Shown in pieces: positions 17,980 to 37,175 of a DNA stretch of 64,000 bases. Made by a program: the position numbers and the translations under genes. Under the pieces are notes generated by a model, which saw nothing but the letters and a program-made list of their open reading frames with translations, was not told the DNA's origin and did not search any database. Origin of the DNA: Roseinatronobacter sp. S2 (GTDB lineage Bacteria > Pseudomonadota > Alphaproteobacteria > Rhodobacterales > Rhodobacteraceae); assembly GCF_029581395.1 (NCBI RefSeq), contig NZ_CP121113.1, positions 983,501 through 1,047,500 on the forward strand, read 5' to 3'. Within the stretch, counting starts at the first letter, position 1, and each line of letters begins with the position of its first letter.

Positions 17980-19047
17980 TCAGTGTGTCAGGCATCTGGC
18001 GATGACCTGCCGGAGTATGTGTGCCGTGTCCTGCCAGCCTGGCAAAGATGCCCCCGCCATTTGGCTTGTGCGCGTCAGCGCGTCATAAAGCGCGCTGTCT
18101 GACAACAGTTTGCGCAACGCCTGCGCAAAATCATCAGGGCTGTCGGGCGCGACCAGCAGGCCCGCGCCGCGCATCGTTTCTGTAACGGCCCCTGTCGCGC
18201 AGCTTACGCTCGGCAGGCCATGAAGCTGGGCTTCACCCAGCACCATGCCATAGCCTTCATACCGTGTGGCCAGTGCAAAGATATGGGCAGACCGATAGTA
18301 TTGTGACAGCGCCGCTGAAGACAACTTTCCCGCCAGCAAGACGCGGTCTTGCAGTTTCAGATCGCGGCGCACCGCTTCAAGCTGATGCAGATACGTAGGG
18401 TCCTGCACCATGCCCACGATGACAGATTGCCAGTCCATATCCGTGATCTGGCCAAGTGCGCGCAGCAGCACATCATGCCCTTTGCGCGGGCATATCAGAC
18501 CGACACTCAGGATAAGTGGCGGGTCCATGCGGGGCAGGGGCGCGGCCTGTTCGGCGCGGTCGAAACCGGGGGGCGCGACAGTGATGCGCGTGCGTGATAC
18601 CCCGAACCGGTCTTGCAACAGCGTGGCTACATGCGCCGATGGCACAATGATATGACAGGCGTGGCGCAGGTTCGCGGCTTCGCGCGTGATCAATTCTGCG
18701 GCGCGATCTGCGGCCAGTCCGGTTTCCAGCCCAAGCGGGTGATGCAACATCACAATCACGGGCCGGTTCAGGCGGGCCACGTCGCGGGTGGCCATTGCGC
18801 CAAATGTCAGCCCGTCAATGATTACGGGCATCATGTCTGGCAGGTCATGCAGCTGTGCAAGTGTCGCGCCTGTGCAGGCGGCGTCTGGCGTGGGCCAACC
18901 GGCAGGCAGGGCCACATGACGCACCGGATGGCCAAGTGCGCGCAAGGTTTCGATCACGCGGCGGTCGTAATATGTGCCACCACTTCGCATCATGATGTCG
19001 CCGGGCACCGCAAAGGCGATTTCAGGATATAGGCGCGCGCCGGTCAT
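17980..19047 (-). CDS. Glycosyltransferase, GT4-like, in the glucan operon
   Basis: A 355-residue glycosyltransferase with the GT-B fold. The C-terminal half has VGLICPRKGHDVLLRALGQI (about 200-220) and the nucleotide-sugar binding block RYEGYGMVLGEAQLHGLPSVSC, an E-x7-E type motif. It starts at ATG 19047, overlapping the OpgG/D stop as ATGA, and is the last gene of the four-gene glucan operon. It probably adds a sugar to, or branches, the periplasmic glucan or a linked lipid. Neither donor nor acceptor can be read from the sequence. It converges on the gamma-glutamyltransferase gene. Confidence 0.88.
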   Translation of the reverse strand: MTGARLYPEIAFAVPGDIMMRSGGTYYDRRVIETLRALGHPVRHVALPAGWPTPDAACTGATLAQLHDLPDMMPVIIDGLTFGAMATRDVARLNRPVIVMLHHPLGLETGLAADRAAELITREAANLRHACHIIVPSAHVATLLQDRFGVSRTRITVAPPGFDRAEQAAPLPRMDPPLILSVGLICPRKGHDVLLRALGQITDMDWQSVIVGMVQDPTYLHQLEAVRRDLKLQDRVLLAGKLSSAALSQYYRSAHIFALATRYEGYGMVLGEAQLHGLPSVSCATGAVTETMRGAGLLVAPDSPDDFAQALRKLLSDSALYDALTRTSQMAGASLPGWQDTAHILRQVIARCLTH

Positions 19048-20597
19048 ACGCCCCCCTCGCGGCTGCGGGTCCAGCGGTATAGCCAGACAGGGGCCAGCAG
19101 CGCGCCGGATGGCAGGCGCAGGCGCAAGCGCAATTCGGCCACGTCCAGATCGGGCGGGGGCGTAAAGACAAAACTTGCCCGCCACGCGCCCGCCTCATCG
19201 CGCAAGCGGTAGAATGCAGCCCCTGTCACATGGTTTGCTACATCATCTGCCCCGAAATCAAGCTGGACCTGCGCGGCGTCCATCGGCTGTGCCCCGTCGC
19301 GGGCAGGTGTGAAATCAATCACGAACAGCCGCCCCTTGGCCAGATTGGGTTCAATCCCCGATGCATTGCGCAAGGGCAAAAGCGGATACTCCCGCGCGGG
19401 CAGGGATGCGGGGCCGGGGGCACCCCAGTCCAGCCTGTAGGAAAAGCGATGCGCGCCTGCACCCAGCGCCGCAGCAGGGCGCCAGAACGCAACGATATTG
19501 TCGGCAAATTCGTTCGGGGTGGGGATTTCCAGCAGCATGACGGCCCCCGCGCCCCAATCGCCCTGCGGTGTCACCCATGCTGACGGGCGGCGGTGATACG
19601 CCCCTTCGTGATCACGGAAATCGTTGAACGCTGTTGGCATTTGCACCAATCCGAACCCGCGCGGCGATTGATCTGCAAAAGCCGATACCTGCACCTGTGC
19701 GGGGTTCGCCAATGGCCGCCACAGCCGTTCGCCCGCGCCATTGTCAATCACCAGCACGTCGCTGTCATGCACAGCGGGGCGAAAATCATCAATCGCTGCG
19801 GGGCCAAGATCGTTGTGCTGGAACATTGATGTCAGCGGGGCGATGCCCGCATCCTCGATCGGGGTGCGGGCAAACAGATGCAATGTGCAGTCCATCGTCG
19901 TGGTCTCGCCCGGGTCCAGCGTGGCGATCAGCGCGCCCGCACAGCGCGGGCTGTCAATAAGGCAGCCGAAATGCAGGCGCGCGTCACTGTGAAACACCGT
20001 GATATGGCGCGTGACGGGAAATTCCTCTGGTGTGGGTCCACCGGTGCCAAGGGACAAGGCGCGCGCTGACAGGCCGTAAACCGTGCCCTTGGCCAATGCG
20101 CGGAAATAGCTGGCCCCTTGCAAGACGATGACTTCATCCCAACTGCCCTTGCGGTTCAACTGATGGCGCAGGCGCAGGCCGGAAAACCCCATATCCGGCA
20201 ATGTTCCTGCCGTAGGGTGCGGGGTGAAATAGCGCGGATCATAGTCGAAAAGCTGCGCCGAAAATTCGGTGTCATGCGCTGGCAGGGTAATGCTGACGGG
20301 ATCGGGGAACAGCCAGCCCGGCGGCAGCAGGTCTGCCACGAAATGCGGCCCAAGCCCCAGATCTGCCGTGTCGCCTGTGCGGGGGCGAATTCCGCGATAG
20401 CTGTCATAACTCAGCCCGTCAAACGGTGCGTTCAGCACTTGCGGGTGCGGGGCATAGGGCTGCGCGGCAAGGTGGCGGGCGGCACCAATCATGGCCTGCG
20501 GGCTGCGCAGGGCGGTGTCTGCCTGCGCGCGGCGGGGCCGCCACATTGGCGCCAGTGCCGCCGCGCAAGCCCCGTTCAGAAAGTGGCGTCTGTTCAT
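19044..20597 (-). CDS. opgG: Periplasmic glucan biosynthesis protein OpgG/OpgD
   Basis: A 517-residue member of the MdoG family, which shapes osmoregulated periplasmic glucan backbones in the periplasm. The N-terminus MNRRHFLNGACAAALAP carries a twin-arginine (RRxFL) export signal, as in OpgD. The conserved family blocks FDGLSYDSYRGIRP and TPNEFADNIVAFWRP are present. It overlaps opgH upstream and the glycosyltransferase downstream by ATGA. E. coli has two paralogues, OpgG and OpgD; I cannot say which this matches. opgC and opgB are not in this operon. Confidence 0.92.
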   Translation of the reverse strand: MNRRHFLNGACAAALAPMWRPRRAQADTALRSPQAMIGAARHLAAQPYAPHPQVLNAPFDGLSYDSYRGIRPRTGDTADLGLGPHFVADLLPPGWLFPDPVSITLPAHDTEFSAQLFDYDPRYFTPHPTAGTLPDMGFSGLRLRHQLNRKGSWDEVIVLQGASYFRALAKGTVYGLSARALSLGTGGPTPEEFPVTRHITVFHSDARLHFGCLIDSPRCAGALIATLDPGETTTMDCTLHLFARTPIEDAGIAPLTSMFQHNDLGPAAIDDFRPAVHDSDVLVIDNGAGERLWRPLANPAQVQVSAFADQSPRGFGLVQMPTAFNDFRDHEGAYHRRPSAWVTPQGDWGAGAVMLLEIPTPNEFADNIVAFWRPAAALGAGAHRFSYRLDWGAPGPASLPAREYPLLPLRNASGIEPNLAKGRLFVIDFTPARDGAQPMDAAQVQLDFGADDVANHVTGAAFYRLRDEAGAWRASFVFTPPPDLDVAELRLRLRLPSGALLAPVWLYRWTRSREGGV

Positions 20598-23053
20598 GCG
20601 GCCACCTGTCGCCGCGTCTGGCGGTCCGGTCCGGTTTGTGCAGGATCAGGGGCGCGCAAGACGACCATGCTGTAGCTCATGATGCCCGCGCGGTAGGCCT
20701 GGGTCAGCGCATTGCCGCCCACCATATTGGCAAAAACCGCAAAGCGTGTCAGGCCCAGCCAGTCCGCAACCGGCCCCGCCAGCCGCAGCGCATGGTCGCG
20801 CTTGCGGTCCAGCCGCAACATTGGGTTCAGGTCATGTTCGGCAAGCGCATCATACCCCAGCGCCTGCGCGCGCGTAACAAATGTGCGGCGGGGCGTCACA
20901 TGGCCCAAACGCCAGCCCCGCGCGAAGGTGCGCACCAAGGCGCGTTCGCGCGGCGACAGGTGATCATCGGTGCGCGCCAGCATGTCATCAACCACCACCA
21001 GAATACCGCCGGGGGCCAGATGCGCGCGCGCCGCTTCCAGAAACCGGCTGGCACTGTCCGTGTGGACATGGCTTTCAATCGCCAGCACCAGATCGGCGCG
21101 CGGCAGGGTTGTGGGCAGCGTGAAATCGGATTGCACAAAGGTGCATTGCCGCGACAGCCCGCGCGTGCGCGCATGCATGCGCGCCAGTTGCACCTGTGTG
21201 GCGCTTAGGGTGATGCCGGCCATCTGGGCGTTCGGCCAAAGCCCCGCCAGATGAAACAGGCTGCCGCCCACCCCGCAGCCCAGATCGCAGACGCGGTCGG
21301 GCGCGCGCCCCAGCGCGGACAGGGCGGCGTTGGCAATCAGGTCATTGGCATGTGCGGCGGCGGCTTCGGTGCTTGTAATTCCGTCTGCCCATAGCGGGCG
21401 GTGAATGGCCAGTGCCGCGCCACTGCCGCCCACGGCCAGAAAGCGCGTTGTGCTGGCATCGTAGTAGCGCGCGACGGGGTCGTGGGTCGTGCTGGCATCA
21501 AGCCAGCGTATCAGCCAATGTGCCGCCAGCAGCGGGGCCACGACCGGCATGACCATGGCCGCAGACAGCAGCGCCGTTGCGCTGGTACCGATCAACATTT
21601 GCGGCGTGATCACGGCTATCAGGATGCCAACCGCCGAAATCTGTTCCCCGCGTCCGGTGAAACCTGCGCGCCGGACCACCTGCCCTGAAGGGTTCCAGCC
21701 TGCATCCTTGCCTGCCAGCACGGACAGCACGAAACCGCTGCGCCGTATCATCCCGATGGGCGCAAACAGCGTTGTCAACCACAGTTCGACCGCAAGCGCA
21801 CGCCATAAAATCCTGCGGCTGGCGGCGTGGCGCATGGTTCTGCGATGTGCGGCCACCCCCGCGAATTTGGGCACCACCAACAGCACCAATGCGCCCAGCA
21901 GCGACCATATGGCCTGCGCGCTGGCATGCACGGCCCCTGACCCCATCAGCAAAACCAGCGCCAGCCAGATTGGCGCGGACAGGTAGGAATGAATACCCGC
22001 CAGCAAATGCAGGCGGCTGGCAGGGTGCAGGCCCCGCCTGCCAATCAGGCGCAGGTGTTGCAAATTGCCCTGTGCCCAACGCCGGTCGCGGCGCAGATGG
22101 CCGGACACCGTTTCGGGCGCATCCTCGAACGAGCCGCGCGCATCGGGCGCAATCTGCACGCGCCATCCGGCGGCACGCATAAATGCGGCCTCGATGAAAT
22201 CATGGCTTAGGACGGGGCCACCAAAGGGCGCAGGGCCGCTAAGGGGTGCCAGTTGTGACACCTGCGCGAAGGCCGCAACACGCAACAGCGCGTTATGGCC
22301 CCAGTAATTGCCCGCGTCGCCACTTAGCCGGGCGAGAGCATGCACAAAAACCGGCCCGCACAGGCGCGCGGACAGCCGCTGCATGGCGGCAATCCGGCTG
22401 TTGCCCGGTCGCAGCCGGATTGCCGCCTGCACAAGCCCCAACTGCGCATCGTGCGCCATCATGGACCGCATGTCTGCCAGTCGCGCGGCGTCAAAACTGC
22501 TGTCTGCATCCAGAACCAGCATCGTGTCGAACGCATCGCCATGATCTATCAGCCAGTCATGCAGATTGCCGGGTTTGCGGCCTTCGGGGGCGGTGCGGTT
22601 GCGCCATATGATCCGGTTTTTCAGCGGGGCGAGTGCGGCGGCTTCGCGCGCCAGCGCTTGCGCGCCCTGGGTGTCTGACAGCACAAAAACCGTGCAGGAC
22701 TGTGATTGCCCGCTGCGGTCCAACCCGTCCAGCAGGGCCTTGATCCGCTGGGCCATGGGTTCGGGCGGCTCGCCACAGACCAGCCACAAGATCGCGCAGC
22801 GTTGCGCGGGGGCGGGCGACCGGGGCAATGCGCGGCGCGCAGGCGCGCCCTGCGTGGTCCACAGACCGATGAGGGCCGCAACAGCGGCGGCCGACAGCCA
22901 AAGGGCATTGGCCGCAAACAGCACAAGAACCACCGCCGCCAGTGCGGGGTGTGTCGCGGCCATGTCCAGCCCGTGCCATAACAATGCGACAAGCGCACCC
23001 GCAAGGCCAAGGCTGGCCAGCACATGCAATCGCCGCGCAGGTGTCAGCATCAT
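20594..23053 (-). CDS. opgH: OpgH glucan glucosyltransferase fused to a SAM methyltransferase
   Basis: An 819-residue bifunctional protein. Residues about 1-515 are the membrane-bound OpgH/MdoH GT2 glucosyltransferase: helices near 10-30 and 38-66, DxD-like LDADSS (182-184), HDFIEAA (284) and the processive-synthase R-x-x-R-W box (322-326), then several C-terminal helices to about 515. Residues about 520-805 are a class I methyltransferase with SAM motif I VCDLGCGVGG (588-597), like small-molecule or cyclopropane-synthase-type enzymes. There is no stop or frameshift between the two. E. coli OpgH has no methyltransferase domain, so a methyl-decorated glucan or lipid is suggested. It overlaps cytochrome b561 upstream and opgG downstream. 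Confidence 0.9.
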   Translation of the reverse strand: MMLTPARRLHVLASLGLAGALVALLWHGLDMAATHPALAAVVLVLFAANALWLSAAAVAALIGLWTTQGAPARRALPRSPAPAQRCAILWLVCGEPPEPMAQRIKALLDGLDRSGQSQSCTVFVLSDTQGAQALAREAAALAPLKNRIIWRNRTAPEGRKPGNLHDWLIDHGDAFDTMLVLDADSSFDAARLADMRSMMAHDAQLGLVQAAIRLRPGNSRIAAMQRLSARLCGPVFVHALARLSGDAGNYWGHNALLRVAAFAQVSQLAPLSGPAPFGGPVLSHDFIEAAFMRAAGWRVQIAPDARGSFEDAPETVSGHLRRDRRWAQGNLQHLRLIGRRGLHPASRLHLLAGIHSYLSAPIWLALVLLMGSGAVHASAQAIWSLLGALVLLVVPKFAGVAAHRRTMRHAASRRILWRALAVELWLTTLFAPIGMIRRSGFVLSVLAGKDAGWNPSGQVVRRAGFTGRGEQISAVGILIAVITPQMLIGTSATALLSAAMVMPVVAPLLAAHWLIRWLDASTTHDPVARYYDASTTRFLAVGGSGAALAIHRPLWADGITSTEAAAAHANDLIANAALSALGRAPDRVCDLGCGVGGSLFHLAGLWPNAQMAGITLSATQVQLARMHARTRGLSRQCTFVQSDFTLPTTLPRADLVLAIESHVHTDSASRFLEAARAHLAPGGILVVVDDMLARTDDHLSPRERALVRTFARGWRLGHVTPRRTFVTRAQALGYDALAEHDLNPMLRLDRKRDHALRLAGPVADWLGLTRFAVFANMVGGNALTQAYRAGIMSYSMVVLRAPDPAQTGPDRQTRRQVAA

Positions 23054-23613
23054 TGCGGCCCTTGGCCCAGTGGCGGCCAGATGCGTTTGAACACCCCGTC
23101 ACGGCGTATCAGATGAACCAGCCCCGCGCCCGCATGCCCCACGATCAGCAACGCCAGCGCAAAACGGGCATTGCCATGCACAAACTGCGCATATTCCGCC
23201 AGACTGTCTGATCGGGGCACAAAGCTTGGCACACCCAGTGCATCCAGCATCTCGATGGGAAAGCCGCCTGCACGCACGCGGACATAGCCGCTGACGGTCA
23301 TGACCAGCAGCAACGCATAAAGCGCCCAATGCGCGGCGCGCGCCAGTCGGGCTTGCAGCGCAGGCACACGCGCAGGCATCGGCGGTGCGGCAACGCGCAA
23401 GCGCCAGACCAGCCGCAGGACAACCAGCAGCAGGATAATCACGCCACCATTCTTGTGCAGTATAAACAGCAAATCCTGTGTCGGGCGGGCAAGCCCGTCT
23501 TGCAGCATGACCACGCCTATGGGGAACGTCGCAATCACCATCAGCGCGACGACCCAATGCAAAAAGCGTGTCATTGGCGCATAACGGGGCAGATGTTTCT
23601 GGCTGGCAATCAT
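23050..23613 (-). CDS. Cytochrome b561 family membrane protein
   Basis: A 187-residue four-helix di-haem b-type cytochrome. Likely haem-ligand histidines lie in TRFLHWVVALMVIATF (about His19), ILHKNGGVIILL (about 53), the third helix (AAHWALYALLL) and VGHAGAGLVHLIRR. Members transfer electrons across the inner membrane from quinol. ATG 23613 is used; a GTG just before it is also possible. It leads the glucan operon and ends overlapping opgH (ATGATG). Why a b561 cytochrome is coupled to glucan synthesis is not clear. Confidence 0.9.
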   Translation of the reverse strand: MIASQKHLPRYAPMTRFLHWVVALMVIATFPIGVVMLQDGLARPTQDLLFILHKNGGVIILLLVVLRLVWRLRVAAPPMPARVPALQARLARAAHWALYALLLVMTVSGYVRVRAGGFPIEMLDALGVPSFVPRSDSLAEYAQFVHGNARFALALLIVGHAGAGLVHLIRRDGVFKRIWPPLGQGPQ

Positions 23614-23659
23614 CACTAGACTTTCGAATGCGCGGAGTGTGTTAGATTGTAGCTTAGTG

Positions 23660-23688
23660 CGATCCAGAAAAAGGCAAGTATCGGATCG
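23660..23688. promoter_or_regulatory. Inverted repeat in the divergent region between glucan and lipid operons
   Basis: CGATCC (23660-23665) and GGATCG (23683-23688) form a perfect 6-bp inverted repeat with a 17-bp spacer, in the 115-140 bp AT-richer gap between the divergent cytochrome b561 and CDP-alcohol phosphatidyltransferase genes. It could be a shared operator; the arms are short, so chance is not excluded. Confidence 0.35.
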
Positions 23689-23752
23689 TCAGGCAATATG
23701 CTGTTCTTCAGAAATGATTTGACTTGGCGTGTCCAACGCTAAATCGGCGGGT

Positions 23753-24526
23753 ATGGTCGAATTATCCTATGCCAAACCCGCAAGTCCCATATCGCGCGTG
23801 CGACTGCATGCGCTTGCGCTTTTGGTGTGTGCAGGCGCATTCGCGGTCGCAGGGGCTTATTTATTAGGGGTTTTTGCGGGGTTTGGCACGGCTGCTGCGC
23901 TGCTGTGTGCGGCGCTGACCGGCATTATCTGGGCCGCTGGCGCGATTGCCATCATGGCAGGTCTAAGGGCGGATTATTTCCCGCATGACAGGCTGGGCGG
24001 GGCAAATGTCATCACAATACTGCGAGCCGCCGGAATCGCGGCAATGGCGGGGCTGCTGGCGGCACCCAACGAACTGGCGCAGGGCATGGGCTGGGCGCTG
24101 GTCACGGTGGCGGGCGTTGTTCTTGCGCTGGATGCGGTCGATGGGTGGGCCGCGCGGCGCACAGGTCTGATGTCAAGGTTTGGCGCGCGGCTGGATGTGG
24201 AAACGGATGTGGCGTTCGCACTTGTGACAGCGGCGCTTGCTGTGGCCGCAGGCAAGGTTGGCATCTGGTTTCTGGTGCTTGGGCTGTTGCGACCTGCCTT
24301 TCTGGCGGCGACTTTTATCTGGCCTGTTTTGCGCGCGCCGCTGCCCCCCGCACAACGGCGCCGCATTGTCGCGGGCGCGCAGATGGGTGCGCAGGTCGCA
24401 TTACTGGCGCCGGTGCTGGTGCCCCCTGCCTCGGCGGTGCTGGGCGGTGTTGTATTGATGGTGGTGCTGTGGTCCTTCACAATAGATATTCGCGCGCTGC
24501 TGGCGCGTCGTGGACAAACAGCGTGA
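23753..24526 (+). CDS. CDP-alcohol phosphatidyltransferase family membrane enzyme
   Basis: A 257-residue integral membrane enzyme with the full CDP-alcohol phosphotransferase motif D-x2-D-G-x2-A-R-x8-G-x3-D-x3-D, seen as DAVDGWAARR then GARLDVETD (first Asp is residue 127, second 130). Such enzymes join CDP-activated diacylglycerol or a CDP-alcohol to an alcohol such as inositol phosphate, glycerol phosphate or serine. A GTG at 23729 is an alternative start; neither start has a clear ribosome site. It opens a four-gene operon in which each gene overlaps the next. The substrate is unassigned; this is not the housekeeping PgsA by context. Confidence 0.88.
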   Translation: MVELSYAKPASPISRVRLHALALLVCAGAFAVAGAYLLGVFAGFGTAAALLCAALTGIIWAAGAIAIMAGLRADYFPHDRLGGANVITILRAAGIAAMAGLLAAPNELAQGMGWALVTVAGVVLALDAVDGWAARRTGLMSRFGARLDVETDVAFALVTAALAVAAGKVGIWFLVLGLLRPAFLAATFIWPVLRAPLPPAQRRRIVAGAQMGAQVALLAPVLVPPASAVLGGVVLMVVLWSFTIDIRALLARRGQTA

Positions 24527-26145
24527 ATTACCTGCGCACAGCTCTGGCGCTTGGCCTTCTGTATCTGGTGTTGATCCAGCCAAACCACCCCGCTGCCATG
24601 ACATGGGGCGCGCTTGGCCTCTTTCCGTTAGAATTGCCGGTGATTGTCGCGGCACTTGTTGCGATGGGCGCGGGCAGGGGCGGGCTTGTGTTGCGGGTTG
24701 TGCTGGTTGTGGCGATGGTGGTGATTGCGCTGCTGAAACTGGCGGATTTCGGCACATTCATCGCGTTTAACCGTGGCTTCAACCTTGTTGCTGATTACAA
24801 CCTTTTGCCTGCGGCGTGGGACTTGGCGCGCGGCAGTATCGGGCTGGCGATGGCTGCACTCGCGCTGGGCGGGGCCGTGGCGCTGGTGGCCCTGCTGGCG
24901 CTTGCGCTGTGGTGGACAACAGGGGTGTTTTCCAGCCTGACGCCTGCTGCGCGCCCGCGCGCGATAGCCGCGCTGCTGTTGGTTCCGGCAACCGCAATCG
25001 CGGTGGCGGAAATTGGTCAGGCGCGGCGGGCATGGTTCCTGCCGCCTGCTGTGTCAAACGCAATTCCGGGGGCGGCCTTTACCGCGCGCGTCGGACTGGA
25101 ACGTGTGGAACAAATTCGCACCACGCGCGCGGATCTGGCAAGGTTCAGGACCGCCGCGCAACAAGACAGTATGCGCGATGTAGCGCCATTGTTCGACAGG
25201 TTGGGCACGCGTGATTTTGTTCTGGTGTATGTCGAAAGCTATGGCCGGTCCAGTTTCGAGAACCCGCTTTATATTCCGACCCATACCGCGACCCTGCAAA
25301 CTATTGAGGGGGATCTGGCCGCGCGTGGTCTGGCCATGCGGTCGGGCTGGGCGCGTGCCCCTATGGTTGGTGGCCAAAGCTGGCTTGCGCATGGCAGTGT
25401 CGCATCGGGCATGTGGCTGGACACGCAGGCGCGCTACCGTGCGCTGATTGCCAGCCCGCGCCGGACACTGTTTCACTATGCGCAGGATGCAGGCCGTCGC
25501 ACGGTCGCCATTAAGCCCGCGCATGTGTTTCCATGGCCGGAAGGGGATTATTTCGGATTTGACGCGATCTATAATGCCGCCGATCTGGGCTATGAGGGGC
25601 AACCGTTCAACTGGGTGACCATGCCCGACCAGTTCACCCTGCACGCACTCGACCGGCTGGAGCGCAGCGATCCCGACCGCACGCCGCTTGTGGTGCAGGT
25701 GGCGCTGGTGTCGTCGCACGCACCTTGGGTGCCCATTCCCGAACTGGTGGATTGGGACGACATTGGCACCGGCACGATATTTGACCAATGGGCATTGTCC
25801 GGCGACCCGCCAGAAGTGGTCTGGCGCGACCATGACCGCGTGCGCGACCAATTCCGGCTGGCGGTGGATTACAGCCTGCAATCGGTCGGGGCATGGGCTG
25901 CACGCCATGCGGGTGACCCGCCGCTGATGGTTGTGCTTGGGGACCACGAACCCGCGCGTTTCGTGTCAGGGGTGGATGGGTTTGACGTGCCTGTCCATGT
26001 GATCGGCCCCGCCGATCTGGTGGACCGCTTCGCCGATCTGGACTGGACCGAAGGCATGATCCCCTCGCCCGCGACGCCGTCCATACGCATGGACGGCATG
26101 CGCGATGCCCTGCTTTCGCGCCTTGGCAGCGGGGCCACCCCATGA
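24523..26145 (+). CDS. LtaS/OpgB-like sulfatase-fold membrane transferase
   Basis: A 540-residue protein: an N-terminal membrane region with about five helices (to about 190), then an extracytoplasmic alkaline-phosphatase/sulfatase fold. Residues expected to bind metal or act as nucleophile are visible: Glu238 in YVESYGRS, Ser286 in VGGQSWLAHGS, and Asp474-His475 in LGDHEPARF. This layout matches lipoteichoic-acid synthase and OpgB phosphoglycerol transferases, which move a phospho-alcohol from a phospholipid to a glycan or lipid. The usual nucleophile there is Thr; here it would be Ser. It starts at GTG 24523 in a GTGA overlap with the CDP-alcohol enzyme. Hydrolase activity is an alternative. 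Confidence 0.87.
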   Translation: MNYLRTALALGLLYLVLIQPNHPAAMTWGALGLFPLELPVIVAALVAMGAGRGGLVLRVVLVVAMVVIALLKLADFGTFIAFNRGFNLVADYNLLPAAWDLARGSIGLAMAALALGGAVALVALLALALWWTTGVFSSLTPAARPRAIAALLLVPATAIAVAEIGQARRAWFLPPAVSNAIPGAAFTARVGLERVEQIRTTRADLARFRTAAQQDSMRDVAPLFDRLGTRDFVLVYVESYGRSSFENPLYIPTHTATLQTIEGDLAARGLAMRSGWARAPMVGGQSWLAHGSVASGMWLDTQARYRALIASPRRTLFHYAQDAGRRTVAIKPAHVFPWPEGDYFGFDAIYNAADLGYEGQPFNWVTMPDQFTLHALDRLERSDPDRTPLVVQVALVSSHAPWVPIPELVDWDDIGTGTIFDQWALSGDPPEVVWRDHDRVRDQFRLAVDYSLQSVGAWAARHAGDPPLMVVLGDHEPARFVSGVDGFDVPVHVIGPADLVDRFADLDWTEGMIPSPATPSIRMDGMRDALLSRLGSGATP

Positions 26146-27044
26146 CATGGGTTTTGCGGCTGCTGGCGTCGCTGGCGGCATTGAGCGCGGTAATCTGGCT
26201 TGTGGACCCCGCGACCCTTGGCCCGCATCTGCGCGGCGCCGACATGCGATGGATGGCGCTGGCCGTGGCGGTTCTGGGTGCGCAGGTGGTGGTGTCGGCG
26301 CTGCGCTGGCAGGTGACCGCGCAGGCCCTTGGCGTGCGCCTGCCCACCCTTTGGGCCATATGCGAATATCATTTGTCGGTGTTGGGCAACACAGTTTTGC
26401 CCGGCGGCGTTCTGGGTGATGTGGGGCGCGTGGCGCGGATGCGCGCCCATGGCGGCTGGCGGCTGGCCGTCGGATCGGTTGTTATCGAACGGCTTGCGGG
26501 GCAGGTGGCGCTGGCATGTGCCGCCATGTTGGGCGTGGGGTGGTGGGCGCTGACACAGCTGGGCGCTGCGGCGGTGCCGGTCATTTCATTGGGTGTGGCT
26601 GTGACAGTCGCGCTGGTATGGGGCGGGGTGCGCTTTCTGCCGGATGCGGTGCGCCGCGCGGTTTCGGCGGCGTGGTTTGCGCCGCAGTTTGCGCTGCGGC
26701 AGCTGGGCTATACTGCCGTGATCCTTTGCTGCAATCTCGGCGGTGTGTGGGCGGCGGCGCAGGCGGTGGGCGTGCAGCTTGGTCTTGGGGCGGCGTTGTT
26801 CGTCATTCCGCTGACTTTGCTTGCGATGTTGCTGCCTGTTTCTGTCAACGGGTGGGGTTTGCGCGAAGGGGCGGCGCTGCTGCTTTGGCCCCTTGTGGGG
26901 GTGGCCGGACCGCAGGCCGTGGCCGCCAGCATCAGCTTTGGTCTGGCTGCCCTTGGGGCCGCGATGCTTGCGATTGTTCCGTGGACGGTGCAGCTTGTCT
27001 TGCGGGACCGGCCCATGCCCGCGATGGCAAGCGACAGGAAATGA
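26142..27044 (+). CDS. Flippase-like membrane protein (lysyl-PG synthase TM-region family)
   Basis: A 300-residue multi-helix membrane protein of the family that includes the transmembrane half of MprF and related putative lipid flippases. Visible family blocks are ALRWQVTAQALG (about 48-59), LSVLGNTVLPGGVLGDVGRVARM (split: LSVLGNTVLPGG, VLGDVGRVARM) and SVNGWGLREGAALL near the C-terminus. There is no aminoacyltransferase domain. It overlaps both neighbours by ATGA, so it probably moves the lipid made by this operon across the inner membrane. Function by family and context only. Confidence 0.87.
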   Translation: MTWVLRLLASLAALSAVIWLVDPATLGPHLRGADMRWMALAVAVLGAQVVVSALRWQVTAQALGVRLPTLWAICEYHLSVLGNTVLPGGVLGDVGRVARMRAHGGWRLAVGSVVIERLAGQVALACAAMLGVGWWALTQLGAAAVPVISLGVAVTVALVWGGVRFLPDAVRRAVSAAWFAPQFALRQLGYTAVILCCNLGGVWAAAQAVGVQLGLGAALFVIPLTLLAMLLPVSVNGWGLREGAALLLWPLVGVAGPQAVAASISFGLAALGAAMLAIVPWTVQLVLRDRPMPAMASDRK

Positions 27045-27877
27045 CACTGAAACCTGCATTTATTCCACCGCACCTGCACGGTTGTCCCCACGGGGACACC
27101 CTTGCGGATGTCGTGCCAGAAGTTATCCGCGCTGGCGAAGGTCTGCTGGAATTCTGGTCGGCGCGTGACACATTGAACGTCGAAGAAAAGCGCGCGGGCG
27201 ATTTTGTCAGCGCGGCAGATCTGCGCACCGAAGCCTTGTTGCGCGACGCGTTGTGCCATCCGGCCGATGACTGGCTGGGAGAGGAGACGCGCAGCACCAA
27301 TCACACCCGTGCGCCCGCATCGCGCCAATGGATTGTCGATCCGCTGGACGGGACCACGAATTTTCTGCGCGGGATTGGCCATTGGGCGATTTCGGTTGCG
27401 TTGCAGGTGGACGGGGTGCGCGTTCTGGGGGTGGTGCATGATCCGGTGCGCAATGAGACCTTTTTTGCGCTGCGCGGGGCCGGTGCCTACCTGAATGGCG
27501 ATGCCATTCGCGCAGCACAGACACAGCGCATGCAAGATGCCCTGTTCGGAACCGGCATACCCTTTGGGCAGATGGCGCATATCGATGACCACGCAGCCCA
27601 GATCGCGCGCCTGATGCCGCAATGTGCGGGGGTGCGCCGGATGGGGGCTGCGGCGCTTGATCTGGCCTATGTGGCCTGCGGGCGGCTGGACGGGTTCTGG
27701 GAACGGCGGTTGCAGCCATGGGACATTGCAGCAGGTCTTGTGCTGCTGCGCGAAGCGGGCCTTCGGGTTGAAGCGTTGGACAAGTCCGAACGCCCAGAAG
27801 ACACCGGCACAGTGCTGACCGCCTGCGCGCCGTTGTTTGACCCGTTTGCCGCAGTCCTGCGCAATAGTGGCAAGTAG
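27041..27877 (+). CDS. Inositol monophosphatase family phosphatase
   Basis: A 278-residue Mg-dependent phosphatase of the IMPase/HisN/CysQ family. Metal-site motifs are clear: GEETRS (about 85, first acidic residues), WIVDPLDGTTNFLRG (about 98-112) and WDIAAGLVLLREAG (about 226). It starts at ATG 27041 in an ATGA overlap with the flippase-like gene. It could dephosphorylate an inositol-phosphate or glycerol-phosphate product of the CDP-alcohol enzyme, or a sugar phosphate. HisN (histidinol phosphatase) is an alternative identity from sequence alone, but the operon context argues for a lipid role. Confidence 0.88.
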   Translation: MTLKPAFIPPHLHGCPHGDTLADVVPEVIRAGEGLLEFWSARDTLNVEEKRAGDFVSAADLRTEALLRDALCHPADDWLGEETRSTNHTRAPASRQWIVDPLDGTTNFLRGIGHWAISVALQVDGVRVLGVVHDPVRNETFFALRGAGAYLNGDAIRAAQTQRMQDALFGTGIPFGQMAHIDDHAAQIARLMPQCAGVRRMGAAALDLAYVACGRLDGFWERRLQPWDIAAGLVLLREAGLRVEALDKSERPEDTGTVLTACAPLFDPFAAVLRNSGK

Positions 27878-27937: not shown

Positions 27938-28672
27938 TCAGCCCCGCAGCCGCGCGTATATGTCGCCCGACCCCGCATCAGGTGCCAGTGCGCCCAGCCA
28001 TGCCTGCATCGCCGCCAGATCGCGCCATGTCCCCCATTCGAAAGCGGCATTTTCACCGCGCACCACGTTGAATTCATACGCCCCCAGATCCGCGATCATG
28101 CTGATCGCGCGGTTGCTGACATCTGGCAGACCTGGCAGATATTCCACAGAAATCAACTGCACGGGGTGGGACAGGCCGGACAGAACCTCTGTCTCGAACC
28201 CTTCGACATCGATCTTGATGTAGCGCGGCAGCCCATGCTGCGCGATCATCCGGTCCAGCGATGTCATGGCCACATCTGCGCGGGCATCCCATTTCACATG
28301 CTCGAAACCGGGCATGGTGCGGGCTTCATCCGGCAGGCTGGCGCGCAGCGATGACACTGTCGGGTGACGCAATGACACCGACATTTCTGCGCGCATTTCT
28401 GACGGGCCAAGGGCCGCTTCCACAAGGACGATATCGCGCGGCAGGGTGTGGCGCAAGAAGCGCGCAAATGCGGGTTGCGGTTCAAATGCAACCACCCTTG
28501 CGCCGCAGCTGCGCATGGCCCGCGCGCGCGTGCCGACATGCGCCCCCACATCAAAGACCAGATCACCGCTGTTCAAAATTCCGTCATAAAGCTGTCTGGT
28601 CCGCCGCATCATCATAGGGTTGAAGTAAATCAACACCGACCGACACAGTCCCAATGCAACGCGCAAAGACAT
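27938..28672 (-). CDS. FkbM family methyltransferase
   Basis: A 244-residue SAM-dependent methyltransferase. The FkbM signature is present: motif I DLVFDVGAHVGTRARAM (about 37-53), VVAFEPQPAFARFLR (about 59-73) and YIKIDVEGFETEVL (about 149). Members usually O-methylate sugars in glycans, lipids or natural products. It starts at ATG 28672 with AGGTG upstream and lies alone on the minus strand between two plus-strand operons. The target may be the glucan or lipid made by the neighbours; that is inferred. Confidence 0.9.
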   Translation of the reverse strand: MSLRVALGLCRSVLIYFNPMMMRRTRQLYDGILNSGDLVFDVGAHVGTRARAMRSCGARVVAFEPQPAFARFLRHTLPRDIVLVEAALGPSEMRAEMSVSLRHPTVSSLRASLPDEARTMPGFEHVKWDARADVAMTSLDRMIAQHGLPRYIKIDVEGFETEVLSGLSHPVQLISVEYLPGLPDVSNRAISMIADLGAYEFNVVRGENAAFEWGTWRDLAAMQAWLGALAPDAGSGDIYARLRG

Positions 28673-28868: not shown

Positions 28869-30005
28869 GTGACGTTTCCTATTGCAATCCCTACGGCCAT
28901 GACGGCGCCCGGCCTTGGCGTTGATCTTGGTGAACGGGTCGCGCGGCTGGTCTGCGATACCCGTCTTGGCCTGCCCGTGCTGATCGGCTGCGGTGCTGAT
29001 ATGACTATTGTCGCACCGGCCGAGACATTGCGGCAGGGCCGGTTTGCACAGCTTGCGGCGTTCGGGGTGCCACATCTGGTTTTGTCTGGCAGGCGGTTCG
29101 CCGCGCTATTGCCTGACACGCAACAGGCCACGCGAAGGGTGTGCACGCTGGCCCTGCCCGCCGCCACACCGTTGGATATGATGCGTCAGATTGCCGGTGG
29201 TGCGGATGTTGCGGCAAGCCTGCTGCCTGCTGGCACAGTGCAGGTGGACTGCCCCGACCCGCTGCCCGACGCTGCAATGTCACTGGCCAAGGCCGCCCAG
29301 CTTTTGCCCGCGATGCTGATGTGGCGTATTCCTGCGGCTGCACGCGACGCCTTGTTGCGTCAGGGGCTGGGGTATCTGCCCGCGCGCGATGTGCTGGATG
29401 AGCTGTCCAGCGAACGCGGTTTCGGCGCAGTCAGTTCGGCGGCCTTGCCGATGGTGTGCTCGGCTGCGGGCCGTGTGAAGGTGTTTCGCCCCGACAATGG
29501 CGGGGCTGAACATTATGCCATTACAGTGGGCACCATTGCGCCCGAACAGCCGGTTCTGGCGCGCTTGCATTCGGCGTGTTTCACAGGCGATGTGCTGGGC
29601 AGTCTGAAATGCGATTGCGGCCCCCAGTTGCAGGCAGCACTTGCCGCGATGGGGCAGGCGGGTGGCGGCGTGCTGATCTATCTTAATCAGGAAGGGCGCG
29701 GCATCGGGCTGGCCAACAAAATGCGCGCCTATGCCTTGCAGGATGCGGGCCTTGATACCGTACAGGCCAACCACCAGCTTGGTTTTGAAGATGACGAGCG
29801 TGATTTTCGCGTGGGGGCCACGGTTCTGTCCTCGTTGGGCATCAGGCGGGTGCGTTTGCTGACAAACAACCCCGCCAAGATGCGTATTCTTGCAAGCCAT
29901 GGGATTGATGTTGTGGAACGCGTGCCGCTTCAGGTCGGGCAGACACAGCAAAACGCGCATTATCTGGCGACCAAAGCGCTGAAATCCGGGCATATCCTGT
30001 CATGA
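28869..30005 (+). CDS. ribA: GTP cyclohydrolase II with a divergent N-terminal domain
   Basis: A 378-residue protein. The C-terminal ~200 residues are a complete GTP cyclohydrolase II: zinc cysteines in SACFTGDVLGSLKCDCG, GTP-binding NQEGRGIGLANKMRAYAL, and ANHQLGFEDDERDF and LLTNNPAKM blocks. This enzyme opens GTP to 2,5-diamino-6-ribosylamino-pyrimidinone phosphate. The N-terminal ~170 residues (LVLSGRRFAALLPDT region) look like a worn dihydroxybutanone-phosphate-synthase-type domain but I see no intact active site. GTG 28869 is chosen as start; ATG 28899 is possible. It leads a five-gene operon, so it may serve a special pathway rather than bulk riboflavin synthesis. Confidence 0.9.
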   Translation: MTFPIAIPTAMTAPGLGVDLGERVARLVCDTRLGLPVLIGCGADMTIVAPAETLRQGRFAQLAAFGVPHLVLSGRRFAALLPDTQQATRRVCTLALPAATPLDMMRQIAGGADVAASLLPAGTVQVDCPDPLPDAAMSLAKAAQLLPAMLMWRIPAAARDALLRQGLGYLPARDVLDELSSERGFGAVSSAALPMVCSAAGRVKVFRPDNGGAEHYAITVGTIAPEQPVLARLHSACFTGDVLGSLKCDCGPQLQAALAAMGQAGGGVLIYLNQEGRGIGLANKMRAYALQDAGLDTVQANHQLGFEDDERDFRVGATVLSSLGIRRVRLLTNNPAKMRILASHGIDVVERVPLQVGQTQQNAHYLATKALKSGHILS

Positions 30006-30952
30006 CCGGCCCGCGCGCCTTATGGGTTGTGGCCCCGAACCGTGCAGAAATCAGGCCCGCCAGTGCAGGGCAGGGGGTCCGGCTGCGCAGCCTGTATTCG
30101 GGCATCAGCCGCGGGACCGAACGGCTGGTCTTGCGCGGGGCTGTGCCCGTGGGCGAACACACGCGCATGCGGGCCCCCCATCAGGAAGGGGATTTTCCCT
30201 ATCCGGTCAAATACGGGTATTGCGTGGTCGCGGAAATAGCGCAGGGCGCGCAAGCGGGCCAGCCCGTCTTTGCGCTGTTCCCGCACCAGACATGGTTTTG
30301 CCTGCCGCAAGACGCATATACCCCCCTGCCTGATACCCTGCCGCCCCCGCGTGCGGTGCTGGCGGCAAATATGGAAACCGCGCTGAATATCATTTGGGAC
30401 AGCGGGCTTTCGGCGGGTGACAAGGTCAGCGTCATCGGGGCGGGGGTGCTGGGCGCGCTGGTGGGCTACCTGTGCGCGCGTCATCCGGGATGCGAGGTGA
30501 CCTTATGCGACATTGACCCCGCCCGCGCCGCATTGGCGCATGCGCTGGGGTGCGATTTTGCCGCGCCGCAGGATCTGCCGCAAGGGCAGGATGTTGTCAT
30601 CAATACCAGCGCGTCCGCGAAGGGGCTGGTGCAGGCGCTGGATATTGCAGGCATGGGTGCCACAGTGGTCGAGGCCAGCTGGCATCGCGAAGATATGGTT
30701 GCGCTTCCCTTGGGGGCGGCGTTTCACAGCCAGCGCCTGCGGTTGGTCAGTTCGCAGGTGGGGGCCTTGCCGCCCGCGCGCGCGCCGCGCTGGAATTTTC
30801 GCCGCCGCATGGACAAGGCACTGGCGCTTTTGTGCGATGACCGGCTGGACGTGCTGATTTCAGGCGAAAGCGCCTTTGATGATCTGCCGGATGATTACCC
30901 CCGTATTCTGAATGCGCCGGACACGCTGTGTCACCGCATTCGCTATGACTGA
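30002..30952 (+). CDS. Medium-chain dehydrogenase/reductase (zinc-less)
   Basis: A 316-residue MDR-superfamily oxidoreductase with a Rossmann NAD(P)-binding segment VSVIGAGVLGALVGYL (GAGVLG at about 146-151) followed by an acidic end of strand 2 (LCDID), suggesting NAD(H). The structural-zinc cysteine cluster and usual catalytic Cys/His of zinc alcohol dehydrogenases are not evident. The N-terminal ISRGTERLVLRG block is shared with BchC-like and related MDR proteins. It overlaps the ribA-type gene by ATGA. It probably oxidises or reduces an intermediate of the pathway encoded here; the substrate is unknown. Confidence 0.85.
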   Translation: MTGPRALWVVAPNRAEIRPASAGQGVRLRSLYSGISRGTERLVLRGAVPVGEHTRMRAPHQEGDFPYPVKYGYCVVAEIAQGAQAGQPVFALFPHQTWFCLPQDAYTPLPDTLPPPRAVLAANMETALNIIWDSGLSAGDKVSVIGAGVLGALVGYLCARHPGCEVTLCDIDPARAALAHALGCDFAAPQDLPQGQDVVINTSASAKGLVQALDIAGMGATVVEASWHREDMVALPLGAAFHSQRLRLVSSQVGALPPARAPRWNFRRRMDKALALLCDDRLDVLISGESAFDDLPDDYPRILNAPDTLCHRIRYD

Positions 30953-30967
30953 ACAGAAAGGACGCCC

Positions 30968-31363
30968 ATGTTCGCCGTCGAAGTCAAAGATCATATCATG
31001 ATTGCCCATTCGCTGCCCTCTCCCGTGTTTGGCCCAGCGCAAGGCATGCATGGCGCGACATTCACCGTGGATGCCGCATTTTTCACCGACGATCTGGACG
31101 TGCATGGTCTGGTGGTCGATATCGGTCTGGCCGTCGATGCGCTGGCTGAAACCCTGCAACCGCTGCGCTACAAGAACCTTGATGAAATTCCCGAATTCGC
31201 CGGAAAATTCACGACGACCGAATTCCTGTGCAAACACATCTTTGACCAGATGCGCGCCCATATCACTGCGGGCACGCTTAAGGATGCAGGCCGCGTGCGG
31301 CGGTTGCGGATTACGCTGCATGAAAGCCACATGGCCCGCGCCTGGTTCGAGGGAGAGGTGTAG
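30968..31363 (+). CDS. 6-pyruvoyl-tetrahydropterin synthase/QueD homologue, active site degenerate
   Basis: A 131-residue T-fold protein of the PTPS/QueD family: the FxVxxxFxxxxL start, GLVVDIGLAVDAL block and the FTTTEFLCKHIFDQM segment (normally NPTxExLA) are recognisable. The catalytic parts are altered. The zinc triad is His14 plus HGH in active enzymes, but here the second is HGA (His28, Ala30). The catalytic Cys before it is missing (FGPAQGMHG), and the LDHxxLN block is LRYKNLDE. So it probably does not do the usual side-chain chemistry and may bind a related pterin or pyrimidine. AAAGGA-like site before ATG 30968. Confidence 0.85.
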   Translation: MFAVEVKDHIMIAHSLPSPVFGPAQGMHGATFTVDAAFFTDDLDVHGLVVDIGLAVDALAETLQPLRYKNLDEIPEFAGKFTTTEFLCKHIFDQMRAHITAGTLKDAGRVRRLRITLHESHMARAWFEGEV

Positions 31364-31366
31364 ACC

Positions 31367-32170
31367 ATGGGTTTCGCGCCGCAATGGCTGGCCTTGCGTG
31401 AACCCGCCGACCGCGCGGCGCGTGACACGGCGTTGCTGGCCCGCGCGGCGCATCTTGCGGGACCGGCACCTGTCATCGTCGATCTGGGCGCGGGCACGGG
31501 GGCCAGTGTGCGTGCGCTGGGGGGGCATTTGCCGGATGCGGCGCGCTGGCGTCTGGTGGACAATGACGCAGCGTTGCTGGCGCTGGCGGTGGCGAACCAC
31601 CCCAATGCGCAAGCCTGCCAGCTTGACTTGAACCACCTTTCGGATCTGCCGCTTGACGGGGCGACACTGGTGTCGGCCTCTGCGCTTCTGGATCTTTTAT
31701 CCGAACGCTGGTTGCGCGCATTTGTGGATATTCTGGTCCGCCACCAGTTGCCGTTTTATGCGGTGCTGTCTTATGATGGTGTTATGCACTGGCAGCCCGA
31801 ACTGCCTGATGATGCGGGTATCACGGCGGCATTCAACCGCGACCAATGCACAGACAAGGGGTTCGGCCCCGCACTCGGGGCGGCGTCGGGCCATATCGCG
31901 CGGACGCTTTTTGAACAAGCGGGCTATTACGTCATGTTGGCACAAACTCCGTGGGTGCTGACGCAACAGGACGCGCGGTTGCAGGCGGAACTTCTGGACG
32001 GGATTGCCGGCGCGGCCGCGCGTGCGGGGCATGGTGGCGCGCCCGCATGGAATGCTGCGCGTCAGCGGCTGGTGTCGCAGGGGCGCTGCACAGTCGGCCA
32101 TCTGGATGTTCTGGCGGTGCCGACAGGTCGGGTGGCGCTGCTTGATGGTCATGGGTGCGGAAATGGATAA
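31367..32170 (+). CDS. Class I SAM-dependent methyltransferase
   Basis: A 267-residue methyltransferase with motif I VIVDLGAGTGASVRAL (about 37-51) and a following acidic loop (LVDNDAALLALA). No closer family is recognised. It begins three bases after the PTPS-like gene ends and overlaps the next gene, so it belongs to the same operon. It probably methylates the product of the cyclohydrolase/reductase pathway. O-, N- and C-methylation cannot be told apart here. Confidence 0.85.
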   Translation: MGFAPQWLALREPADRAARDTALLARAAHLAGPAPVIVDLGAGTGASVRALGGHLPDAARWRLVDNDAALLALAVANHPNAQACQLDLNHLSDLPLDGATLVSASALLDLLSERWLRAFVDILVRHQLPFYAVLSYDGVMHWQPELPDDAGITAAFNRDQCTDKGFGPALGAASGHIARTLFEQAGYYVMLAQTPWVLTQQDARLQAELLDGIAGAAARAGHGGAPAWNAARQRLVSQGRCTVGHLDVLAVPTGRVALLDGHGCGNG

Positions 32171-32987
32171 AGCCCTTGTCAGCGCCCGCGTGTGGCAGCG
32201 CATTCTGGACATACGCAATGGCACCGGCTGCCCCTGTTGCGGCGACTGGAGTGCTGCGGAACGTGCGGCCCTTGCCATATATGCGCCGCTTGCGCGCCGC
32301 GACCGGGGGCCTGTCACCATCGGCCAGATCGGCCAGTCGCTGGACGGGCGGGTGGCCACGGTTGCAGGCGATGCGCGCGACATATCGGGGCCGGACGGGT
32401 TGAAGCACCTGCACCGGCTGCGCGCCATTTCTGATGCGGTTGTCATCGGGGTGCGCACTGCGCTGCATGACAGCCCGCGCCTGACTGTGCGCCTGTGCGA
32501 TGGCCACAATCCCGCGCGTGTGGTGATTGACCCGCGCGGGCGGTTGCCAAACGATGCGCAGATTTTCGCAGATGACGGCGCGCGGCGCATCGTGTTGCAG
32601 CACGGTGATACGGCCCGCCCCAAAGGGGTCGAGGTTGTTCGCCTTCCTGCGAGCGCCGAAGGCAGCATGTCACCGCGCCATATTCTGCGCGCCCTGAACG
32701 GCACAGGGCTGAACACAGTGCTGATCGAAGGCGGGGGTATTACCGTGTCGCGGTTTTTTCAGGCGGGTTTGCTGACGCGTTTGCATGTGGCGGTCGCGCC
32801 CTTGCTGATCGGGGGCGGGCCGCAGGGGTTTCACACCCTCAATCCGGTGGCGCAACTGTCCGACGCCACGCGCCCTGATACGCGGGTGTTCAATATCGGG
32901 TCCGATATCTTGTTCGATTGCGGTCTGGCATCGGCACAGGACATTGTTTCAGCGCCATGGCACGGGGTCGCACGGCAAATGCGCTGA
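32163..32987 (+). CDS. RibD-type reductase without a deaminase domain
   Basis: A 274-residue protein whose main part (about 60-255) is the RibD C-terminal, dihydrofolate-reductase-like domain: QSLDGRVATVAGDA, HRLRAISDAVVIGVRTAL, LIEGGGITVSRFF and LLIGGGPQGF. In riboflavin synthesis this fold reduces the ribosyl chain of the pyrimidine to ribityl with NADPH. The N-terminal cytidine-deaminase domain of RibD is absent; instead there is a short region with CPCCG (about 23-27). ATG 32145, 32151 or 32163 could be the start, all overlapping the methyltransferase gene. It ends the operon before a terminator hairpin. Confidence 0.88.
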   Translation: MDKALVSARVWQRILDIRNGTGCPCCGDWSAAERAALAIYAPLARRDRGPVTIGQIGQSLDGRVATVAGDARDISGPDGLKHLHRLRAISDAVVIGVRTALHDSPRLTVRLCDGHNPARVVIDPRGRLPNDAQIFADDGARRIVLQHGDTARPKGVEVVRLPASAEGSMSPRHILRALNGTGLNTVLIEGGGITVSRFFQAGLLTRLHVAVAPLLIGGGPQGFHTLNPVAQLSDATRPDTRVFNIGSDILFDCGLASAQDIVSAPWHGVARQMR

Positions 32988-35187: not shown

Positions 35188-35237
35188 CGGTATCCCCTTG
35201 GTGGTTTTCTGGCTGGCGATACCGCTGGCGTTCTGAC

Positions 35238-35272
35238 AGGTTCGTTACTAATGCTTAGTAAAATAGTCAAGA
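35238..35272 (-). promoter_or_regulatory. Receptor promoter with a 17-bp palindromic operator
   Basis: On the minus strand TTGACT (35267-35272), 17-bp spacer and TAACGA (about 35244-35249) make a sigma70-like promoter for the receptor. TTACTAATGCTTAGTAA (35245-35261), a perfect palindrome with a 3-base centre, fills the spacer and overlaps the -10 box. A repressor bound there would block transcription. Iron or haem control (Fur, Irr or RirA family) is the likely reason but the sequence alone does not say which. Confidence 0.65.
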
Positions 35273-35276
35273 TTAC

Positions 35277-36065: not shown

Positions 36066-36070
36066 GGCGG

Positions 36071-37171: not shown

Positions 37172-37175
37172 ACCC

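Follow-up and report, generated by a model that had tools for sequence, protein, structure and literature searches.

The 64,000-nucleotide stretch of Roseinatronobacter sp. S2 studied here (contig NZ_CP121113.1; hereafter the window, with positions counted from its first letter) carries at 28869..32987 a compact operon that combines enzyme families of early riboflavin synthesis with a methyltransferase, a dehydrogenase and a protein of the PTPS family. We combine profile searches, gene neighbourhoods from many genomes and structure models to study what this operon and its neighbours may make.

The five-gene operon

An earlier note on this DNA had described a tight operon of GTP cyclohydrolase II (GCHII), a Zn-less medium-chain dehydrogenase (MDR), a PTPS/QueD homologue, a methyltransferase (MT) and a RibD reductase lacking its deaminase, and both Pfam and the gene limits agree with that description. 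The genes are as follows.

28869 (GTG) or 28899 (ATG)..30005, plus strand: GCHII with N-terminal extension; Pfam PF00925, 1.3e-59
30002..30952, plus strand: Zn-less MDR, motif SRGTE; very weak BchC likeness
30968..31363, plus strand: PTPS/T-fold protein of SCO6650 type, HGH changed to HGA and catalytic Cys lost; PF01242, 6.1e-21
31367..32170, plus strand: class I S-adenosylmethionine (SAM) methyltransferase; Methyltransf_25, 2.3e-05, below cut-off
32151 or 32163..32987, plus strand: RibD_C reductase without deaminase; RibD_C, 2e-35

The GCHII and MDR genes overlap in ATGA, gaps of 15 nt and 3 nt separate the PTPS-like gene from the MDR gene before it and the MT gene after it, and the RibD-like start codon lies inside the MT gene; the five genes are translationally coupled or nearly so. 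Within the GCHII, the GTP_cyclohydro2 domain occupies residues 192-353 of 378, and the first ~190 residues have no Pfam match. The MDR matches ADH_zinc_N below cut-off (3.5e-05) and the Rossmann-type 3HCDH_N barely over its own, scores 30.6 bits as BchC against a cut-off of 291, and, like all other MDR sequences of the set, lacks the usual motif of zinc-dependent alcohol dehydrogenases, C[GA][TS][DE] (0/141). As the note had reported, the operon has neither a deaminase domain (Pfam finds none in the RibD-like protein) nor a flavin mononucleotide (FMN) riboswitch (no Rfam family reaches threshold in the window). The RibE and RibH genes map elsewhere in the genome.

A cassette conserved across bacteria

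We collected 142 neighbourhoods: 22 chosen by MDR (all orthologues besides the window's own, three weak matches having been dropped), 40 by the PTPS-like protein within the class (40 of the 44 other matches, leaving out G403, G446, G477 and G576), and 80 named loci, which are the best 80 by PTPS of at least 585 relatives in a species-level collection. Because the loci were picked by MDR or PTPS, the counts of these two families are conditional on that selection, and because many contigs break off within the stretch, the numbers of loci with a given gene are minimum values. We set the score thresholds ourselves, in gaps of the score distributions, with family models built from the same loci. 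The 40 control windows were chosen by hand from as many alphaproteobacterial cluster genomes, one per genome, and 80 of the 142 loci are not from Alphaproteobacteria. Since the sequences are related, Fisher values overstate independence, both for the control comparisons and for the GCHII/creatininase comparison below.

MDR orthologues occur in 23 of the 244 genomes drawn from the order (our own included), and around the 22 others the PTPS-like gene and the MT gene are always present (22/22 each) and RibD nearly so (21/22). Within the class, 45 of 385 genomes carry the PTPS-like protein, and a profile search finds it in 27 of 398 genomes of the phylum; by record title, the 80 named loci come from Gamma-, Beta- and Alphaproteobacteria, Actinobacteria, Acidobacteria and Gemmatimonadota. 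Over all 142 loci we find MDR in 141, PTPS in 142, MT in 133, a GT4 glycosyltransferase in 129, RibD in 107 and GCHII in 85. Three membrane-type families follow, a CDP-alcohol phosphotransferase (CDP-OH) in 91, a flippase-like protein in 69 and an LtaS-like protein in 29, and then several further ones: creatininase 47, FkbM 28, YceI 25, OpgH 23, inositol-monophosphatase family (IMPase) 20, cytochrome b561 19 and OpgG 7. The earlier note had looked to co-occurrence of the five operon families in relatives, and the gene set does stay linked, with GCHII and RibD its less constant members; all five stand together in 67/142 loci. The IMPase is mostly a feature of the Rhodobacteraceae-type loci, where it is seen in 17/22.

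Control windows hold none of the core families (MDR, PTPS, MT, RibD, GCHII and GT4, 0/40 each at the same thresholds; GT4 2/40 at 40 bits), and CDP-OH, the LtaS-like 'sulfatase' (SULF), the flippase-like LPGS, IMPase and creatininase each appear in 1/40. OpgG is not enriched (7/142 versus 1/40), and OpgH is so only weakly (23/142 versus 1/40, Fisher p 0.03).

The note had confined the pathway to the five genes. This does not hold: GT4 is about as constant as MT, and the operon belongs with genes at 17980-27877 as one cassette of roughly ten genes. Going from left to right, these genes and their accessories are:

17980..19047, minus strand: GT4 glycosyltransferase, a core member in relatives; last gene of the OPG operon, with a 4-nt overlap with OpgG
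19044..20597, minus strand: OpgG (MdoG) periplasmic glucan protein, accessory; PF04349, 1.3e-131
20594..23053, minus strand: OpgH-type glucosyltransferase fused to a SAM methyltransferase, accessory; the methyltransferase domain is C-terminal, residues about 586-689
23050..23616, minus strand: cytochrome b561, accessory; PF01292, 2.8e-25
23729..24526, plus strand: CDP-OH, motif D..DG..AR.8G...D...D intact; PF01066, 1.3e-13
24523..26145, plus strand: membrane-bound alkaline-phosphatase-superfamily transferase with LtaP/LtaS-like fold (SULF); PF00884, 2.4e-07
26142..27044, plus strand: lysylphosphatidylglycerol-synthase transmembrane-region protein (LPGS, flippase-like); PF03706, 3.7e-31
27041..27877, plus strand: IMPase phosphatase; PF00459, 2.2e-54
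27938..28672, minus strand: FkbM methyltransferase, accessory, between the two plus-strand operons; PF05050, 3.6e-14

The plus-strand operon of CDP-OH, LtaP/LtaS-like, flippase-like and IMPase genes is joined by successive 4-nt overlaps, and the minus-strand operon (b561, OpgH fusion, OpgG and GT4, from 23616 down to 17980) likewise overlaps. The GT4 gene thus sits ~12 kb from the five-gene operon, coupled in the window to a glucan operon. Creatininase and YceI models have no match in the window.

Outside Rhodobacteraceae a frequent order is CDP-OH (divergent), MDR, PTPS, GT4, MT, flippase, RibD (reversed) and GCHII, and the pAt plasmid of Agrobacterium tumefaciens (CP048471.1, locus L257) carries ten cassette genes in about 9.3 kb, annotated side by side as sulfatase, flippase, CDP-OH, ribA, MDR, PTPS, GT4, MT, RibD and cytochrome b. 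For four plasmid regions, the public annotation is in line with our assignments, except that RibD is unlisted in the Streptomyces one and CDP-OH in two. The PTPS marker occurs in 20 of 72,556 plasmid records, and no match was found among 50,697 phage records. The YceI-family protein (PF04264, confirmed by Pfam for two proteins) is present in 25 loci, including L098, L102 and L136, and in 20 of 22 layouts its neighbour among the listed genes is CDP-OH or RibD.

Two further observations concern the surroundings of the cassette. A gamma-glutamyltranspeptidase gene (window 16420-17949) has counterparts near the cluster in 9/142 loci versus 0/40 controls, which is too sparse for inclusion. Directly after the five-gene operon, on the minus strand at 33085-39055, a TonB-receptor-like gene is followed by an ABC-importer-like set that by eye resembles haem or iron uptake.

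Proposed pathway and its alternatives

The strongest chemical clue comes from the way in which GCHII and creatininase vary together. The window GCHII keeps the catalytic Tyr (KMRAYALQ), presumably the residue numbered Tyr105, and its Zn Cys triad is present (CFTGDVLGSLKCDC), whereas many actinobacterial cluster GCHIIs have Met or His at the Tyr position; SCO6655, a Met-form GCHII, reportedly stops at the formamide FAPy. Among the 85 loci with GCHII, a creatininase gene accompanies 22/22 of the non-Tyr forms versus 19/63 of the Tyr forms, and within Actinobacteria alone (by locus title) the split is 21/21 versus 0/16. The protein of Streptomyces tendae locus L182 matches PF02633 at 6e-67, and archaeal ArfB, a FAPy deformylase, is of the creatininase family, so that the partner in relatives fits a putative FAPy deformylase. 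This co-variation points to a route via 2,5-diamino-6-ribosylamino-4(3H)-pyrimidinone 5'-phosphate (DARPP); it would give the pathway a concrete first step and would explain why an early-stopping GCHII persists.

The closest solved structures to the RibD profile are 6p8c (2.6e-44), a reductase named for DARPP, and 2azn (6.7e-40), which we take to be archaeal, both ahead of bacterial RibD (8.7e-33). With two reductases of this kind ranking first, even though others of that name come lower (see below), and no deaminase domain present, the pathway probably retains the 2-amino-4-oxo ring of pterins; the Glu residues conserved in the T-fold protein are in keeping with this.

This T-fold protein belongs with SCO6650 of Streptomyces coelicolor: its family profile matches PDB entry 3d7j at 3.6e-59, with other PTPS entries reaching 5.2e-08 at best. 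The gene is the sole PTPS of its own genome. The SCO6650 structure is said to have no zinc, no catalytic triad and a pterin-like pocket, and the protein no PTPS activity. Across all 143 PTPS-like sequences His14, His28, Asp51, Asp72, Glu85 and Glu119 are invariant, the third zinc-ligand His is Ala30, and the segment from residue 15 to residue 31 is free of Cys. The motif is FGPAQxxHGAT, and HGH occurs in 2/143 reading frames, off the motif; the protein is probably zinc-free, judging by these residues. Published signatures of PTPS-I, II and III are CxxxHGH, CxxxxxHGH and ExxHGH, and the part of that paper available to us describes the function of PTPS-V as still unclear (PMC5041015). None of the three signatures is found in the PTPS-like family. 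Membership of the PTPS family, as the earlier note had it, stands, but the common QueD label is unlikely, with the zinc-ligand His replaced in 143/143. Since 14 of the 20 plasmid records name the gene 6-carboxytetrahydropterin (queuosine) synthase, many genomes are probably wrongly annotated at this key gene.

Turning to the remaining enzymes, the AlphaFold model of the MT has a predicted local distance difference test score (pLDDT) of 95.8, and its nearest folds are class I methyltransferases. For GT4 the nearest solved structures are Tll1590 (6kih), 3c4q/3c48, phosphatidylinositol mannosyltransferase (3oka) and D-inositol-3-phosphate glycosyltransferase (7qsg); its resemblance to glycosyltransferases acting on inositol and phosphatidylinositol is distant. 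Foldseek places the 'sulfatase' (model mean pLDDT 86.7) nearest to LtaP and LtaS, LtaP being best at 9.9e-10 with template-modelling (TM) scores of 0.40/0.51, and the CDP-alcohol motif is intact in 86/87 sequences. Together, the GT4, LtaP/LtaS-like and CDP-OH genes suggest a product that is attached to the membrane or transported through it; where cytochrome b561 and YceI occur, they suggest a redox or quinone contact. A paper on a riboflavin phosphatase of Aquifex includes, among other structures, one of an IMPase (PMC12051542), to which no link is established.

On balance we consider it likely that the operon supplies the cytoplasmic half of an orphan pathway conserved among these bacteria, whose end product would be a 2-amino-4-oxo-pyrimidine or pterin that bears a sugar and a methyl group and is probably carried on or across the membrane. 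Gene content, conservation, the GCHII/creatininase co-variation, the lost catalytic residues and the extra GCHII copy described below are direct observations. From them we infer the chemical steps, their order and the product. GCHII would open GTP to give DARPP; in actinobacteria with the altered GCHII, the creatininase-family deformylase would finish this step via FAPy. The RibD-type reductase would then work on the compound before any deamination, keeping the pterin-type ring, and the T-fold protein would bind this ring and, with the BchC-like dehydrogenase, form or alter the ring or its side chain. The MT would methylate and GT4 glycosylate, after which CDP-OH, the flippase-like and the LtaP/LtaS-like proteins would link the product to the membrane or carry it across, with cytochrome b561 and YceI possibly providing a redox or quinone link at its outer face. 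As for the product that the note had proposed, a route from GTP other than riboflavin synthesis to a methylated pyrimidine or pterin is retained, and nothing indicates a deazaflavin.

A bolder and less probable version of this pathway would yield a new class of membrane molecule, common to Proteobacteria, Actinobacteria, Acidobacteria and Gemmatimonadota, in which a redox-active pterin or ribityl-pyrimidine, made from GTP via GCHII and both methylated and glycosylated, sits on a phospho(glyco)lipid, is flipped to the outer leaflet by the LPG-type flippase-like protein, finished by the LtaP-like enzyme and reduced through b561 with a YceI carrier. If the product does lie in or outside the membrane, it would bear on the open question of pterin efflux, for which, according to the part of a 2026 review available to us, no system has been identified (PMC13259868).

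Several points weigh against the proposed pathway. Attachment to lipid is a reading of gene content, and the MT and LtaS-like assignments are at fold level, with TM scores of about 0.4-0.6 (about 0.6 at best for MT). In alphaproteobacterial loci CDP-OH is near the core in 21/62 and the flippase in 5/62, the latter in 0/40 outside the Rhodobacteraceae set. Enrichment over controls is not significant for b561 (19/142 versus 1/40, Fisher p 0.08) and barely so for IMPase (20/142 versus 1/40, p 0.049). In the cytoplasmic half, further chains that carry this reductase name come after bacterial RibD in the profile search (4ha7, 7.9e-17; 9l1f, 1.5e-15), and RibD was not found near the cluster in 35/142 loci, including the Streptomyces loci L182 and L184, which no contig end cuts, so that the pathway either can do without the reductase or has its gene at another site.

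An alternative is that the product is a pterin or pyrimidine glycoside, soluble and exported, comparable to the pterin glucosides of cyanobacteria, with CDP-OH, flippase and LtaS-like genes belonging to a neighbouring glycolipid or periplasmic-glucan system that is only co-located. The tightest unit of the cassette is MDR-PTPS-GT4-MT, with all four in 121/142 loci, and the accessory half can exist as a separate block: control window L211 holds a block OpgG-OpgH-b561-CDP-OH-SULF-LPGS, the sole control match of those six families, at about 2,004,400-2,011,600 of G125:C1, roughly 1 Mb away from that genome's core (L047). In this one genome, CDP-OH and flippase lie elsewhere as a block. However, in Gamma- and Betaproteobacteria, Actinobacteria and Gemmatimonadota the CDP-OH and flippase genes stand on either side of the core in a shared order, CDPOH-MDR-PTPS-GT4-MT-LPGS (for example L130, L165 and L182), and OPG genes occur in only 7/80 named loci (OpgH in L153, L154, L202 and L204; OpgG in L186, L198 and L206). 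We regard the soluble product as unlikely, though worth keeping in mind.

Less probable still is a role of the PTPS-like protein as a pterin sensor or scaffold without catalysis, in a cluster that makes a signal, as in the periplasmic PruR signalling of Agrobacterium. The loss of catalytic residues with retention of acidic and His residues would suit such a role, as would a LysR-type regulator (PF00126/PF03466) in 9/142 loci, which in L127 (6534-7439) ends directly before MDR; periplasmic pterin signalling together with an unknown pterin export is described in the available part of the 2026 review (PMC13259868). Against this, LysR regulators are common, the 9/142 comes without a control comparison, and no signal receptor is identified.

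Ordinary riboflavin, lumazine or deazaflavin supply from extra early riboflavin genes, which the GCHII and RibD families might suggest, is already contradicted by the rest of the genome and is very improbable. The note had turned on whether other ribA and ribD copies exist in the chromosome, and a complete riboflavin gene set is present elsewhere: a 368-aa RibD, one RibE, two lumazine synthase (RibH) genes (G000:C1:2898394 and 2925689), a ribBA (L009:3852-4979) and a second GCHII of the same architecture as the window copy (C1:805825-806991). Since the GCHII half of RibBA gives a weak score and appears degenerate, the housekeeping ribA is probably the second, separate GCHII (L008:5826-6992). 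We extended this count to 44 relatives (22 cluster genomes and 22 without MDR), calling a GCHII strong above our own threshold of 160 bits. Exactly two strong matches are seen in every cluster genome whose cluster includes GCHII (16/16), and a single one in each cluster genome where it does not (6/6) and in each genome without MDR (22/22), with a weak copy beside the strong one(s) in 43/44. The cluster GCHII is a dedicated extra copy, and we reject riboflavin housekeeping; the missing deaminase domain and riboswitch, the frequent GT4 and the constant PTPS-like partner also speak against it.

A queuosine/7-deazaguanine or tetrahydrobiopterin pathway, for which the PTPS fold and database names speak, is rejected as scarcely credible on the HGA motif and missing Cys, and on a score of 30.5 bits against the QueD NCBIfam equivalog cut-off of 89.25.

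Comparison with known systems

How does the proposed pathway compare with described routes from GTP? The archaeal and fungal riboflavin pathway uses GCHII or ArfA/ArfB, with the reductase acting before the deaminase. The cassette is alike in its GCHII, in the creatininase-family protein of some loci and in a reductase whose two top-ranked structures are such enzymes, but unlike in having no deaminase or lumazine/riboflavin synthase and in adding GT4, MT, MDR and membrane genes. PTPS-I/QueD, II and III of COG0720 share with the PTPS-like protein the T-fold and PF01242, but not, as described above, their signatures. Cyanobacterial pterin glucosides (UDP-glucose:tetrahydrobiopterin glucosyltransferase) resemble the cassette, by description, in pairing a PTPS-type protein with a glycosyltransferase, but they start from GTP cyclohydrolase I, whereas the cassette has GCHII. 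The toxoflavin (tox) operon, like the cassette, uses GCHII, a RibD-type enzyme and a methyltransferase from GTP; compared by description, it has to our knowledge no PTPS-like, GT4 or CDP-alcohol genes.

The closest system is that of SCO6650 and SCO6655 in S. coelicolor, which has the same PTPS subfamily as the window. The window shares with it the PTPS subfamily, MDR, MT and GCHII in one operon and GT4 ~12 kb away; it differs in that its GCHII keeps the Tyr, in having no creatininase match, and in carrying RibD, LtaS-like and IMPase genes. The order in S. tendae (L182), CDPOH-MDR-PTPS-GT4-MT-LPGS-creatininase-GCHII, would fit the six consecutive numbers 6650-6655 in S. coelicolor, and by this numbering SCO6652 would be the MT. 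SCO6652 is listed in a table of a study of first versus second mycelium (PMC3610822). The open-access library searched yielded no paper describing the whole gene set. The earlier note's view that no named pathway has this set holds insofar as we found no known product for it, but the Streptomyces PTPS and GCHII have reportedly been studied singly. What we have is a recurrent biosynthetic cassette, a GCHII-type pathway with a partly studied orphan counterpart in Streptomyces.

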